In this document: positions 29,427-36,390 of the stretch, piece after piece
Position numbering within the stretch: position 1 is the first letter of the stretch
How the letters are laid out: each line of letters begins with the position of its first letter
From: Desulfofundulus kuznetsovii DSM 6115
GTDB lineage: Bacteria; Bacillota; Desulfotomaculia; Desulfotomaculales; Desulfovirgulaceae
Direction of reading: 5' to 3'
Assembly (NCBI RefSeq): GCF_000214705.1
Contig: NC_015573.1
Location: 2,673,001-2,737,000 of the forward strand
DNA: 64,000 nucleotides
The notes under the pieces: model-generated
Told to the model about the DNA's origin: nothing
Databases searched by the model: none
Seen by the model: only the letters and a program-made list of their open reading frames with translations
Translations under genes and position numbers: made by a program

Positions 29427-29900
29427 CTACTCCTCTCTTTCCTGCACCAGATTGATGAAGAGGCTTTCCAGGGATTGCCTCCTGGGAACGAGCTGGTATA
29501 GCCGGCCTCCACTGGCAACGATAGCCCCGGCCAGCCCGGGAATTTCCTCTTCATTCCTCAGAGTTGCCGTTAAGCATTCACCGTCAAAACTAAAATCAAA
29601 TCCCTGTTCCCGTAATTTGCGGTGGATATCTTCGTTAAACCCGTCCACCCTGGCTTCCACTTCAATTCTGCCCGAATTAAGCTCGGCCATGGTGCCGCTG
29701 GCTATGATGCGTCCCTTCTTAATGATGGCCACCCGGTCGCAGATCATTTCCACTTCGCTCAAGAGGTGGCTGTTTAAAAAGACGGTCTTGCCCTGCCTTT
29801 TCAGGGCCAGGATTAATTCCCTTACCTCCTTGCGCCCCAGGGGATCCAGCGCCGAGGTGGGCTCGTCCAGAAACAACAGGTCCGGGTATAGGGTAACCAG
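29427..29900 (-). pseudogene. ABC transporter ATPase gene, 3' half (Walker B to C terminus)
   Basis: The minus-strand frame gives LYPDLLFLDEPTSALDPLGRKEV, LNSHLLSEVEMICDRVAIIKKGRII and a normal C-terminal domain ending at 29427. Walker A and the signature motif are absent. Upstream of ~29900 the sequence becomes IS4-like. The matching 5' half with Walker A lies at 36246-36390 on the same strand, 6.3 kb away; about 100 central residues appear to be lost. A TTG at 29876 could still start the fragment. Confidence 0.88.
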
Positions 29901-29906
29901 TTTTTC

Positions 29907-30366
29907 AGAGGAATTTCCATTTACAAAATTATTTACACTCCCGCTTTCAGCAGAGGATGTGGCGCTCCTTTACCGGGCGCGCTAGAGCATCGAACCGGTT
30001 TTCAAGGAACTGAAGCGTCTCTACCAGTTGGATGTGATCTCCAGTGGGGCACCTGCCGTGGTAGAATCTCTGGTTCTGGTGGCCATGCTGACCCTGGTTG
30101 TAAGCCACCGGCTGCTTAACCACATGCGGTTGCTGGCTCCGGAGAAAAGTGCCCGCTTTACTCCTTTGCGCTGGGCCGAATCGTTTTACTCCATTGCGCC
30201 GGTTATAATGGCTCGCGTACTCAAGTTTATCGGAATTGACGAAGATCCTCTCCTGCTTATAATTTACTTCATGGCTGAGGGTGTCGATCCCAATGTCAAC
30301 AGAGAACGCCTGTTGTCACCCTGGGTAAAGGCGGTAAATTCCCAGGTATTAGATGGTAATAAGTAA
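29907..30366 (+). pseudogene. IS4-family transposase remnant
   Basis: The plus-strand frame reads FTLPLSAEDVALLYRAR, a TAG stop where the family has Trp (YRARW), then SIEPVFKELKRLYQLD and continues to 30366. The YRARW...FKELK block is the conserved IS4 region with the catalytic Glu. Everything before it, including the first two acidic residues, is missing. It borders the cut ABC ATPase. Confidence 0.82.
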
Positions 30367-30479: not shown

Positions 30480-30827
30480 ATGAGAAAGTGTAAAATTGAT
30501 TTCAATGAATCTCTTCATCCCGAACCTTGGCGAGATTTTTATATACGCTATTTTCCAGAACTAGAAACGATGGACGTAAAGGAAGACGGCTTCACCGACC
30601 AGTCTTTGCGTTGCCTCCATCACGACGACAGGAAGCCTTCCGCAACAGTTAACGTCAAGTCCGGCTTCTACGTCTGCCATGTCTGCGGGAGCTTTTCACC
30701 GTACCGCTTTTTAGTTGAAATTGCAGGCATTGCGCCGGAAAACGCGAGCTACTTCATAAACGACTACCTCCGCGAGCTATACGTAAAAGACGAACAAACA
30801 GGAAACCACCTCAATAAGGTTGAATAA
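30480..30827 (+). CDS. Small CHC2-type zinc-finger protein (primase-like zinc-binding domain)
   Basis: 115 residues, ATG after GAGGAGG. The centre resembles the DnaG zinc-binding domain: CLHHDDRKPSATVNVKSG, then FYVCHVCGSFSPYRFLVEIAG. Possible zinc ligands are the Cys and His of CLHH and the two Cys of CHVC. No polymerase domain follows. Such stand-alone domains occur in plasmids, phages and integrative elements. It may be cargo of the mosaic, with a possible role in its replication. Confidence 0.62.
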   Translation: MRKCKIDFNESLHPEPWRDFYIRYFPELETMDVKEDGFTDQSLRCLHHDDRKPSATVNVKSGFYVCHVCGSFSPYRFLVEIAGIAPENASYFINDYLRELYVKDEQTGNHLNKVE

Positions 30828-31269: not shown

Positions 31270-32526
31270 CTAAGCGGCTACTTTTGCCACTGGTCTAACC
31301 GGTCCGGCATGTACTAAGGCCGGATGGCTTTCAGGCAAAACCAAATCCCGGTTATACGCCATTCCCTTGCGTGCCAGGGCAAAGATGATGCGCAAAAGCC
31401 TGCAGCAAATGGCCACCAGGGACTGCTTTCCTTTCAGTGGGTTGTTGGGCCTGGTGGTGTAATAGTGGTGGAGTATCGAAAATTCCTGCGTTCTGGCCAC
31501 CAAAACTAGGGCTACCCGGAAGAGCGCGCAGCGCAGCTTTGCTCTGCCCCGCTTGCTGATGCGGGTCCTTCCCTTGTGGGTGCCTGAACTGTTTTCCACC
31601 AGGTTCAGGCCGGCCAGCTTTATTAACTGCCTGGCATTGCGGTAGTTGTTCAGGTCGCCCACTTCGGAAACTATGGTGGCCACTTGCAGTATGCTCATTC
31701 CCGGGATGGTGAGCAGGTACCCGGCATAAGGGATTTCCCTCAACAGTTCTGCCAGGCGGGCCTCAACCAGCTCGCATTCCTTGAGGATTTCCTTGACCCG
31801 GCGTAGCTGGTAGCGGAGCTCCATCCTGGCGCCTTCAAGGCCATCTCTTACACCCACCGAGGTCCTGGCTTTATCCTTTAGGAGCTCAGCATGCTTGAGC
31901 CCGACCCGGTTATGAGTGGCCCGGCTTAAAACGTCAGCCACTTCATCTACCGGCTTTTCAATGAGGTCAGCTGGGAAAGGGAAATTATCCAGGGCAGCCA
32001 TGGCGGCCTTTCCTTCAACAGACTTGAAAACGTCTTGAAACTCCGGAAAGTACAGGTCCAGGATGGTGTTGATTCGCGCTTCGCTTTGTTGAAGGTCTTT
32101 GTTTAACCGTCCCCGGAAGTTGACGAGATTGCGGATATCCGCTATTACGCCGGCTGGAATGTGCGGGATGTAGAAACGACCATCCCTGGCCAGGCGGGCA
32201 ATTACCCCGGCATCCTTGTCATCCCGTTTGGTTGGTGAATTGTCGTCCAGTTCCTTGGCCTTTTTGACATGGTGCGGGTTGACCAGGACCACCGTAATCC
32301 CTTGCGTTTTTAAGACACAGGCTAAGGGGAGCCAGTAATGGCCGGTAGGCTCCATGGCCACCAGAACTTTAGACAGGCCGTGTTTAAACTGGATCGTCTT
32401 GATTTGCTGGACTAGATCACCAATGCCGGATATGGTATTCTGGAATGGGAACGGCTTGTGCAGTCCCTCCCCCCGGAAATTGATCATTTGGGCGTAGTGG
32501 GTATGCTTGGCCACGTCTACACCCAC
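31270..32526 (-). CDS. IS110-family transposase (DEDD recombinase)
   Basis: 418 residues, GTG start with no clear ribosome site. The N-terminal RuvC-like domain has the DEDD residues: D4 (GVDVAKH), E59 (VAMEPTGHYW), D102 and D105 (KRDDKDAGV). The C-terminal Tnp_IS110 domain has IPGMSILQVATIVSEVGD, with the catalytic Ser, and LAGLNLVENSSG. It appears full length. These enzymes recombine circular element DNA into targets using a guide RNA transcribed from the element. It sits beside an IS66 remnant and may have inserted into it. Confidence 0.92.
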   Translation of the reverse strand: MGVDVAKHTHYAQMINFRGEGLHKPFPFQNTISGIGDLVQQIKTIQFKHGLSKVLVAMEPTGHYWLPLACVLKTQGITVVLVNPHHVKKAKELDDNSPTKRDDKDAGVIARLARDGRFYIPHIPAGVIADIRNLVNFRGRLNKDLQQSEARINTILDLYFPEFQDVFKSVEGKAAMAALDNFPFPADLIEKPVDEVADVLSRATHNRVGLKHAELLKDKARTSVGVRDGLEGARMELRYQLRRVKEILKECELVEARLAELLREIPYAGYLLTIPGMSILQVATIVSEVGDLNNYRNARQLIKLAGLNLVENSSGTHKGRTRISKRGRAKLRCALFRVALVLVARTQEFSILHHYYTTRPNNPLKGKQSLVAICCRLLRIIFALARKGMAYNRDLVLPESHPALVHAGPVRPVAKVAA

Positions 32527-32682: not shown

Positions 32683-32916
32683 TTTGTCATTGGCCGCAAG
32701 AACTGGTTGTTTGCCAATACTCCGCGGGGTGCACGGGCCAGCGCTATTACTTACAGCATCATAGAAACGGCAAAGGAGAATGGATTGAATCCTTTCCAAT
32801 ACCTCAGCTATCTTTTTGAAAAACTTCCCAACCTGAACCCTAAAGACAGTAACGCCCTGGATCAGTTACTCCCCTGGTCCGATTCATTACCCCCTGTCTG
32901 CAGGGTTAATAAATAA
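32683..32916 (+). pseudogene. IS66-family transposase, C-terminal remnant
   Basis: The frame from 32683 reads FVIGRKNWLFANTPRGARAS, then YSIIETAKENGLNPFQYLSYLF and LPWSDSLP to the stop at 32916. These are the conserved last ~75 residues of IS66 TnpC. The remainder of the transposase is absent; the sequence to the left belongs to the IS110 element. Confidence 0.88.
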
Positions 32917-33015: not shown

Positions 33016-33408
33016 TTGAGTGGACCGAGCCTTCAAGATGTCGACCAGTGGAAGGTCTTCGGAAGGAACTTGAGTGGGCAGACTGTACATGATAACATTG
33101 CTGCACGCGCTCGAGGGGTAGCCGCAAAAGTTGAGTCGGAACCATTGAAGCAAGACCTCGAAGCATTTGCTCGATCATTAGAACTTGCTTACGAGAAAAA
33201 GGATGTCAGGCTGCTGATACTCGCGCATCGCATCATTCATGACCTCGACTACTGGGTGTTCAGCAATGAGACCTTCGAGTCTAGAGACTACTGGGGAGCT
33301 ACAAGTACCTTAGAAGGCAAGGAAGGCAGTCCTGTTGGGCGGCTGCTTGACGGTTGGTCGGATTACAGGCAGAGAATCTTGTCGGATGGCAGCGTAGTAG
33401 GGGGTTGA
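33016..33408 (+). CDS. Hypothetical protein
   Basis: 130 residues from TTG at 33016, with GGAG five bases upstream. The frame remains open upstream through the terminator and gives a protein-like YFKTDQSDNAWKTVGEYL, so the gene may be the tail of a longer one. The middle is helical and acidic (KVESEPLKQDLEAFARSLELAYEKKD). No family was recognised. Codon use is less GC-rich than the surrounding chromosome, in keeping with transferred DNA. Confidence 0.42.
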   Translation: MSGPSLQDVDQWKVFGRNLSGQTVHDNIAARARGVAAKVESEPLKQDLEAFARSLELAYEKKDVRLLILAHRIIHDLDYWVFSNETFESRDYWGATSTLEGKEGSPVGRLLDGWSDYRQRILSDGSVVGG

Positions 33409-33627
33409 CACTACTGGTAGAGTTGTTGTAGATTTTCCTACGAGTAGCGAAACGGAGTAGCTTGTCTCCTTTATATCGAGCTTTGCCGAACAAAGTCGGA
33501 AACTTTTTCCCTCTGAACGCGGAACCATTTTCCTTCCTTTAACGCCTGTATAGGTAGGAGAGGATCGAGGGGGTGGTTCCGATGCGCTGATAGACTAATC
33601 GACCTGTTCGTAATGGAGGTGATGAGA

Positions 33628-33963
33628 GTGAGTGGTAGACTAAAGTCCTGCTCCTTTTGTGGGAAAACCGAGACGACAGTCAAGCTCGTAAGTGCTCCCG
33701 ATGACTATGATTCAGAAATCTGTATTTGTAATGAGTGTGTGAAGGAATGTGTGGACATCATTGATGGAGAAACCACGTTGGGAACGCTCTTTCATAGTGT
33801 TACTTCGGCAACTCAAGAAAGCAAATCCTCAAGTTGCTCCTTTTGCGATAAGACCGAGAAGCAGGTAGACTTCCTTTTAACGAACCATACCCTCTTCATC
33901 TGTAATGAATGTATCTCTCTCTGCAAAAAAATCCTTGAAGAAGAGGAGAAAAATCAGGTTTGA
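33628..33963 (+). CDS. Tandem ClpX-type C4 zinc-finger protein
   Basis: About 111 residues. GTG at 33628 lies 7-8 nt after GGAGGT. Two similar C4 fingers: CSFCGKTETTVKLVSAPDD..ICICNECVKEC (first half) and CSFCDKTEKQVDFLLTNHTLFICNECISLC (second half). These match the N-terminal zinc-binding domain of ClpX (CSFCGK...ICNECV), which binds adaptors and substrates, but no AAA+ part follows. A stand-alone duplicate could act as a decoy or adaptor for ClpXP, or mediate other protein contacts. The function is inference only. Confidence 0.72.
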   Translation: MSGRLKSCSFCGKTETTVKLVSAPDDYDSEICICNECVKECVDIIDGETTLGTLFHSVTSATQESKSSSCSFCDKTEKQVDFLLTNHTLFICNECISLCKKILEEEEKNQV

Positions 33964-33980
33964 AGAGGAGGTTAGTTAGA

Positions 33981-34444
33981 ATGAGAAGCCTACATTCTAA
34001 GACACTGGCGGTATTCCTTACGCTGTTGCTAACGGTCTTTGCAGGATTACTGGCGGCGCCAGCTAGTGCTCACACGGTTGAGGAAGGCTTAGTAGCCACA
34101 GAGTCCAGCAGCGGTGGTGACATCCAACCAAATCATGTCATAACTGGTGACTTGGCAGTGTAAACTTCACTGTCCTTCGATCTGGCAGAACGGCTGGAGC
34201 CACAATCGGTATATTTGGATATCCAGGTGTTACTGTAACTGGTCGGTGGACTGTGGATTGGGGTGATGGGACTACCAGTAGTGGCTGGATACCTACTGGT
34301 GTATCATCTTGGTCCTACCAGATAACCCATACCTATCCAGATACAGGTACGTATACTGCTACCCTTACGGGTTGGGTAAGCTTAACGGCTTCTCCGTTCT
34401 ACTGCACTTTCCTACCTCACTCGCACACAACGACGGGGAGTTAG
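33981..34444 (+). pseudogene. Secreted PKD-like protein gene with a frameshift
   Basis: ATG at 33981 follows GAGGAGG. A clear signal peptide (TLAVFLTLLLTVFAGLLAAPASA) is followed by ~30 residues ending in VITGDLAV and TAA at 34161. Shifting frame at ~34155 continues smoothly as VNFTVLRSGRTAGATIGIFG and then a PKD-like VDWGDGTTSSG...ITHTYPDTGTYTATLTG to the stop at 34444. One base appears to be missing. Without the shift it would encode a ~154-residue exported protein with one immunoglobulin-like fold. Confidence 0.68.
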
Positions 34445-34474
34445 AACTACATTAGACCAAGTAATGTAAAACTC

Positions 34475-34508
34475 GGCGTAGAGGACGCTTCGGGCGTCCT
34501 CTTTCCTA
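34475..34508 (+). terminator. Terminator after the PKD-like gene
   Basis: AGAGGACGC and GCGTCCTCT flank a TTCGG loop, followed by TTCCTATTCTT. Confidence 0.8.
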
Positions 34509-34685: not shown

Positions 34686-34898
34686 GTGAACGCGCTACTT
34701 ACTACCAATGAAACGGCTGAAATCCTCGGAATATCGCCCATTGCGGTCGCCAATCTCCTTCGGGATAAGAAACTGCCGGGTATCAAGAAACGAGGTGATG
34801 ACGGGATTGACCGCTGGTTCATCAGACGGGAAGACGTTGCCCTCTACTGCGCGGGGTTGGCTATTTTCAAGTATGCTCCAGCACAAAGCCAGAATTAG
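34686..34898 (+). CDS. Excisionase-like helix-turn-helix protein
   Basis: 70 residues, GTG after AGGAGGTGA. TTNETAEILGISPIAVANLLRDKKLPGIKK is a MerR/Xis-type helix-turn-helix, followed by a beta wing with WFIRREDVALYC. It precedes the serine recombinase by 30 bp on the same strand. Such small proteins often act as recombination directionality factors for integrative elements. That role is inference from position and fold. Confidence 0.75.
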   Translation: MNALLTTNETAEILGISPIAVANLLRDKKLPGIKKRGDDGIDRWFIRREDVALYCAGLAIFKYAPAQSQN

Positions 34899-34928: not shown

Positions 34929-36282
34929 GTGATACTACGGAAACGAGCAGCGATACTGGCAAGAGTTTCCACAGAAGACCAGGTAGAAGGTACCTCTCTC
35001 GATATTCAAGTCGAAATTTGCATGGCGGAAGCTCAAAAGAGAGGATACCACATTACCCCTGCGGACGTTTTCAAAGAGGACGGATACAGTGGTGCCCTTG
35101 GTATTAACGACAGACCTATCCTCCGTAACCTGTGGGAAAAGTATCAGGCTGGAGAATACGACGCCATCTTCCTTTACCGGCAGGACGGGCTTGCACGCTC
35201 GGTAGCAATCCTCTCAGCACTTCGGGATGAAGCCCTCAAACCGCGCCGATGCGGAACCAAAGGTGACGGTTTCATTTTCGTTCAAGGGGGATTTGAGGAT
35301 ACACCGGAAGGCAGGCTCTTCTCCAATATCCAGGGATCGTTTGCAGAGTACGAAAGAGAGGTAATCCGCCTTAGAACTCTGACCGGTAAGAAGAAGAGAG
35401 CGCAAGAAGGAAAATTCTTCGGTACCGCAGTATTCGGTTACCGATGGAATAAGGAAAAGCAACGCTGGGAAATTGTCGAAGAAGAAGCCAAAATAGTCCG
35501 GCTCATCTATAACTGGTACGTCTATGGTGACGGTAAATCCGGCCCGATGGGTACGGTTAGGGTGGCTGAGAAACTTTACCCAGCTTGGTATTCCTACGCC
35601 CTCTCAATTTCGCGGCGTTCACCGAGGCAAGAAGGGTAAACCGGTCACCCAGTGGAGCGAAACCACGGTTCAGAGAATCCTTACCCACACCGCTTATAAG
35701 GGTACGAACTACTTTTGGCGCGGTGACAGTGTGCCGGTAAGCCAAGAGCGGGTTGAAAGAGCTAAGGCAACAAATCCCAATGATGGATGGTACGCGGTTG
35801 ATTTCCCTGTTATAATTGACCCTCTCCTGTGGGAGAAGGCGCAGGAAAAGAGGGTTGGAGCGAGAGGAGGCTTCAACAGGAAGTATCCTAAACCGCTTCT
35901 TGCAGGACGTATCAACTGCGGGTTATGCCAACACGCCTACGGTATCGGGTATTATAACACCGGAAAAACGCTTGTCTTTAAGTGTAACGGAAGGCTCAAG
36001 AAAAACCATCTCGACGGTAGTCCGAGATGTACCTCTCCCATCCTCTACGGTGAAGCGTTAACGGAAGAGGTTAAAAGCCGCATTGTAAAGCTCCTCCGTA
36101 GCCCGGAACAGATGCGAACAGCTATCGAAGAATATGTAGAAACCTTGGAACGGAGAAAGGAGGAACTGGAAACCCTGCTCTCACCAATAAACGAACAACT
36201 CTCTCAAGTCCAGGAGAAGCAGCGTAGGCTCGCCAACATTTACCTTAACCAGGGTGCTCTTGCCCGCCCCGTTGGGTCCTAA
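34929..36282 (+). pseudogene. Large serine recombinase gene, frameshifted and cut at the 3' end
   Basis: The first frame (GTG at 34929) has the resolvase domain with the nucleophile in ILARVSTEDQ, then YDAIFLYRQDGLARS and GSFAEYEREVIRLRT. It leaves frame near 35575: an extra T in a TTT run turns EKL-TQLGIPTPS into EKLYPAWYS and a stop at 35639. The second frame continues with SETTVQRILTHTAYKG, a recombinase domain, a zinc ribbon (CGLCQHAYGI...SPRCTSP) and a coiled coil. The last residues run into ABC ATPase sequence, so the C-terminal tail is lost. Probably inactive. Confidence 0.88.
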
Positions 36283-36390
36283 AAAACCGAAAATTTGCCC
36301 CTCGGGAACCGAGAGGCAAATATCCCGGCAGCCCAACCTGCCGCCGTAAAGTTTGGTTAAATTAAAGGTCTCTATGATCAAGGCACTCAC
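36246..36390 (-). pseudogene. ABC transporter ATPase gene, 5' half (Walker A)
   Basis: ATG at 36390 overlaps the stop of the sigma-type gene (ATGA). The translation SALIIETFNLTKLYGG, then GQIFGFLGPNGAGKSTLVK, is a normal ABC N terminus with Walker A. After STLVK the frame enters the recombinase gene and stops at 36181. Together with 29427-29900 it makes the two ends of one ATPase, with the middle missing. Confidence 0.88.

Follow-up and report, generated by a model that had tools for sequence, protein, structure and literature searches.

In ClpX, the zinc-binding domains at the N-terminus form dimers; these dimers, attached to the ATPase ring by a tether, capture adaptors as well as some substrates. 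The isolated zinc domain dimerises (PMC9035409) and recruits substrates and adaptors (PMC9035409, PMC7857489, PMC7804408); dimerisation and the recruitment of adaptors had been stated in an earlier note on the DNA described here, and the literature bears them out (PMC9035409, PMC7804408). In E. coli ClpX, residues Phe16 and Ile46 belong to a pocket of the zinc-binding domain (ZBD) dimer that is needed for enhancement by trigger factor (PMC7804408). This pocket overlaps the site for lambda O and is common to SspB and RssB (PMC7804408).

Two described systems involving Clp unfoldases serve for comparison. Mycobacterial ClpC2, a partial homologue of ClpC1, has been shown by experiment to act as a sponge (PMC10030653), and Gp53 of phage SPO1 is an example of a Clp protease being manipulated by a phage (PMC6873191). 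Closer in sequence are the stand-alone ClpX-type fingers of phages and plasmids, which are gathered in four PHROG families (phrog_6797, phrog_12435, phrog_5259 and phrog_20296) and carry the NCBI name 'ClpX C4-type zinc finger protein'; our literature search found no paper assigning them a function. Here, we describe a protein from Desulfofundulus kuznetsovii that shares with them a motor-less ClpX finger on mobile DNA. Every phage or plasmid member read has one finger, often behind a helical N-terminal part, and none is tandem, whereas the protein described here carries two fingers in a single chain.

A tandem of ClpX-type fingers lacking the motor

The gene lies at 33628..33963 on the plus strand of a 64-kb window, the whole stretch of DNA that was analysed, and encodes 111 residues between a GTG start and a TGA stop. 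A ribosome-binding site, ggaggtg, can be read from the sequence at about 33615..33621 (+); further upstream, a promoter-like site (TTGACA-18-TAGATT, 33405..33434, +) is weak evidence, the count of such sites being near chance. The protein belongs to the zf-C4_ClpX family (PF06689), which it matches in two stretches with an E-value of 4.2e-23 and 81.4 bits overall. In the genome-wide search, finger 1 (33643..33765, +; genome 2706643-2706765; C8/C11/C34/C37) scores 38.4 bits and finger 2 (33832..33942, +; C70/C73/C92/C95) 51.8 bits, each above the curated cut-off of 27 bits. The eight-cysteine pattern occurs once in the window and in none of 100 base-shuffled windows (0/100), and the nearest PDB sequences to the protein are ClpX zinc domains. 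The claim of the earlier note that this small protein holds two ClpX-type C4 fingers and no ATPase is thus upheld, the latter because the profiles for complete ClpX fall far below their cut-offs (TIGR00382, 47.0 against 370.75 bits; NF003745, 55.7 against 359 bits), showing that the AAA+ ATPase module is absent and that the protein is not a ClpX. Nor is it a broken clpX, since tblastn with both ClpX proteins of the host matches the N-terminal fingers only and finds no AAA+ remnant nearby. Assignment to the Lar restriction-alleviation family was likewise rejected (TIGR03655, 13.9 bits against a cut-off of 39.6), and PADLOC gave no match linking the finger protein to a defence system.

The host genome, a single contig of 3,601,386 bases, has two full ClpX proteins, at 412578 and 782990, the former of a type present in almost all members of the class. 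The second (418 aa; L127:6949-8205, genome 782948-784204) is flanked by mobile-element-like helicase, HTH, VWA-like and HNH-like ORFs; relatives in the class otherwise have one ClpX. The tandem fingers are not a copy of this second protein, both being about equally distant from either ClpX.

Relative to the ClpX N-terminal domain (PF06689; 1ovx, 2ds5-2ds8), the tandem protein retains the finger sequence, the zinc ligands, the fold of finger 2 and the pocket Phe and Ile, but differs in having two fingers per chain and no AAA+ motor. Finger 2 keeps the canonical spacing of 18 residues between its cysteine pairs, the same as in ClpX, whereas finger 1 has 22, four more, giving a longer hairpin loop; finger 1 also carries a glutamate (E40) where a helix leucine is expected, and the AGP turn is lost or altered in both fingers. 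By alignment, Phe16 and Ile46 of E. coli ClpX correspond to F10 and I44 in finger 1 and to F72 and I102 in finger 2. These retained residues are consistent with partner binding, of which the phenylalanine is weak evidence because it lies inside the near-invariant CSFC motif.

The earlier note had called the protein a duplicate of the ClpX zinc domain. Two ClpX-type fingers are indeed present, but they are identical at 17 of 38 positions (about 45%), no nearer to each other than to the ClpX fingers of other bacteria, and their identity to ClpX-type fingers is about 40-50%. At the 17 residues common to both fingers, the same codon is used in nine cases against 7.8 expected, so that a recent internal duplication has left no trace. 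As the identical residues show no codon excess, any duplication would be old, or else the fingers came together from separate sources.

An AlphaFold2 model was built on an alignment of 27 rows that is deep over finger 2 only; a model made without an alignment was poor. Finger 2 is modelled with pLDDT of about 93-98 and overlays the ClpX ZBD-XB complex (2ds8_B) with a deviation of 0.9 A over 41 residues, and the structure comparison ranks ClpX ZBD entries clearly first (Z 6-7). Finger 1 reaches a pLDDT of about 53-74, the linker (48-64) is of low confidence, and the model of the whole protein, with a pTM of 0.42 from an alignment deep over finger 2 only, gave no packed finger-finger arrangement.

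A degenerate insertion around an intact gene

The finger gene resides in an insertion of roughly 6.3 kb that is framed by two pieces of an ABC-transporter ATPase gene on the minus strand. The C-terminal piece (29430..29909, -), with Walker B, includes LLFLDEPTSALDP in its translation, and the N-terminal piece (36245..36390, -; PF00005, 1.3e-7) carries Walker A. The ends of the insertion are not clean: judged by eye, the stretch that separates Walker A from Walker B has lost some tens of residues. None of the five congeners searched has the surrounding ABC-transporter cluster, so no empty site was seen in them.

The insertion is crowded with fragments of IS elements, including an IS110-family transposase (31270..32526, -; NF033542, 5.9e-66), a C-terminal remnant of IS66 (32707..32916, +; PF13817, 5.1e-16) and other IS remnants. 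Upstream of the finger gene, an ORF of 130 aa from no known family (33016..33408, +) has weak relatives in two class genomes, both lacking a tandem or second finger gene, and linkage between the two genes was therefore rejected. Directly 3' of the finger gene is a gene for a secreted PKD-domain protein (33978..34445, +; PF00801, 4.9e-5) broken by one frameshift, such that its signal-peptide-like N-terminus and its PKD part lie in different frames; a terminator-like hairpin follows in the sequence at 34480..34502 (+). Beyond it are an excisionase-like HTH_17 protein (34686..34898, +; profile matches) and a large serine recombinase pseudogene (34929..36282, +; PF00239, PF07508 and PF13408) that is split by a frame break into 236 and 252 aa and is apparently truncated at its C-terminus. 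At 30480..30827 (+), an ORF of 115 aa encodes a CHC2-type, DnaG-like zinc finger (PF01807, 5e-5, just under the cut-off; phrog_360, 6.2e-8) but no primase domain; like the fingers of the tandem gene, it is a zinc domain that stands alone in this insertion.

The mobile setting described in the earlier note is thus real but degenerate, and the element looks dead. Unlike its surroundings, the finger gene looks undamaged: all eight zinc-ligand cysteines are kept while adjacent genes are frameshifted. Its composition is foreign (GC 42%, GC3 47%, against a GC3 of 65% for a set of other large genes in the window).

Distribution of tandem and single fingers

The tandem protein was found only in its host among 113 genomes of the class (1/113), being absent from the 112 relatives, and the finger gene is carried by no congener. 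Searches were run at thresholds of E 1e-9 or 1e-11. In a phylum sample of 398 genomes (397 besides the host), E 1e-9 was reached in no other genome except through ClpX itself, and partial sampling of three other phyla (188 + 398 + 396 = 982 genomes, the searches of 398 and 396, in the phyla of G500 and G496, being without a positive control) yielded no tandem. The earlier note had suggested looking for tandem proteins in phages and integrative elements; the phage, plasmid and viral-contig sets contained single fingers only. The 111-residue protein is therefore a singleton in the searches made.

Single fingers are, by contrast, widespread. The phage profile phrog_6797 describes a helical N-terminal part of about 60 residues followed by one C-terminal finger; in its best stretch, the match of the tandem protein covers the finger only (profile 58-105 of 107, 2.2e-16), whereas true members cover 1-106, and membership was rejected. 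Two single-finger relatives are each found in 109 of 5,426 E. coli genomes, one on P1-sized plasmids (109 genomes, 104 plasmid places) and the other in chromosomal relatives of a P2-like phage, and single fingers occur in Caulobacter phage Cr30 and in a range of viral contigs. Within the class, genome G029 encodes a 185-aa single-finger protein with a helical N-terminus. In a second class genome, G087, a single ClpX finger protein of 75 aa (L129:2022-2246, -) lies on the same strand as clpX, about 600 bases upstream of it, and is possibly a partial duplication of that gene.

Relatives outside ClpX are mostly stand-alone proteins, with few fusions, and are not confined to unrelated enzymes, the pattern that the earlier note had considered damaging to its proposal. 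In one viral contig (L192:2953-3513), a ClpX finger is fused to a dUTPase_2-like domain whose match stands at its cut-off, suggesting that phage enzymes employ the finger as a docking module. A Labilithrix MAG (Myxococcota) encodes an N-terminal ClpX finger joined to a C-terminal MshEN domain (L100:8016-8834); this MAG has three finger matches, each in a frame of about 300 residues, and one of the three frames was read. For mobile DNA, stand-alone ClpX fingers are thus already on record, and the tandem is a rare variant. The suggestion that the protein might represent an undescribed strategy fails for the general kind, already clustered in PHROGs and named at NCBI; the tandem arrangement is unmatched in the sets searched. 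The earlier reading stands in its domain, its missing ATPase and its mobile setting.

Possible roles of the tandem protein

The best explanation, which we put forward tentatively, is that the protein may imitate the ClpX N-domain dimer within a single chain and bind the partners of ClpX as a decoy. It starts from two intact fingers, the lack of a motor, the pocket residues, the foreign composition and the degraded mobile setting. Held in one chain by a flexible linker (about residues 48-64), the fingers could pair with each other and would then offer the same hydrophobic pocket as the ClpX dimer. Docking partners of ClpX would be retained rather than unfolded, and the action of ClpXP on them might be lowered or redirected; the element could benefit, for example, if one of its replication or recombination proteins were spared. 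A decoy or adaptor role is reasonable given what the zinc domain of ClpX does on its own, namely form dimers and bind adaptors and substrates, and given that the pocket residues are kept. The recurrence of stand-alone single fingers on phages and plasmids counts in its favour; the longer loop and E40 of finger 1, the low pLDDT of that finger and the degenerate host element count against it. ClpC2 would be a parallel, since it too is homologous to part of a Clp unfoldase and has no motor, its decoy action being experimental and that of the tandem proposed, although ClpC2 is a ClpC paralogue of unrelated fold that binds cyclomarin and its own promoter (PMC10030653). Gp53 resembles the tandem in coming from a mobile element and in modulating a Clp protease, the latter again a proposal for the tandem, but it is adaptor-like for ClpC and contains no copy of an unfoldase domain (PMC6873191).

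The protein might instead bind ClpX itself, one finger swapping into the ClpX zinc-domain dimer in the manner of a subunit-like adaptor while the second recruits a partner or blocks the entrance. The ZBD is a dimerisation domain (PMC9035409), and the single fingers with helical N-termini (phrog_6797 and the G029 protein) and the dUTPase_2 and MshEN fusions look like a docking module on varied cargo, which fits heterodimerisation. We nonetheless regard this as doubtful, since tandem fingers can satisfy each other and have less need of ClpX. Rather unlikely, too, is that the gene is an evolutionary relic that arrived with the now dead element and has no current role. Frameshifts in the recombinase and PKD genes, the abundance of IS fragments and the absence of the gene from congeners speak for a relic, but the ORF is intact, with its ribosome-binding site and all zinc ligands, and a relic today would leave the ancestral function standing. 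A role that has nothing to do with ClpX, for instance in binding nucleic acids or in regulation within the element, is improbable: treble-clef fingers are in wide use and the finger 1 model weakly resembles ribosomal and GATA-like fingers, but at a background level (Z about 3) beside the clear matches to the ClpX ZBD, both fingers are of ClpX type by sequence (about 40-50% identity), and a basic surface is not apparent, the C-terminus being acidic (EEEEK).

Extending the preferred decoy reading beyond this protein, mobile elements might use free protease docking domains, single or as one-chain dimers, to shield element proteins from ClpXP or to retarget it, the tandem being the self-dimerising form; so broad a proposal we think unlikely to hold as stated. 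The present case is a single one, located in a degenerate island, and the tandem form would be a convenient single-chain reagent for testing a decoy or docking role. If the proposal is true, the widespread and already named stand-alone ClpX fingers would gain a testable role in the control of host proteolysis.
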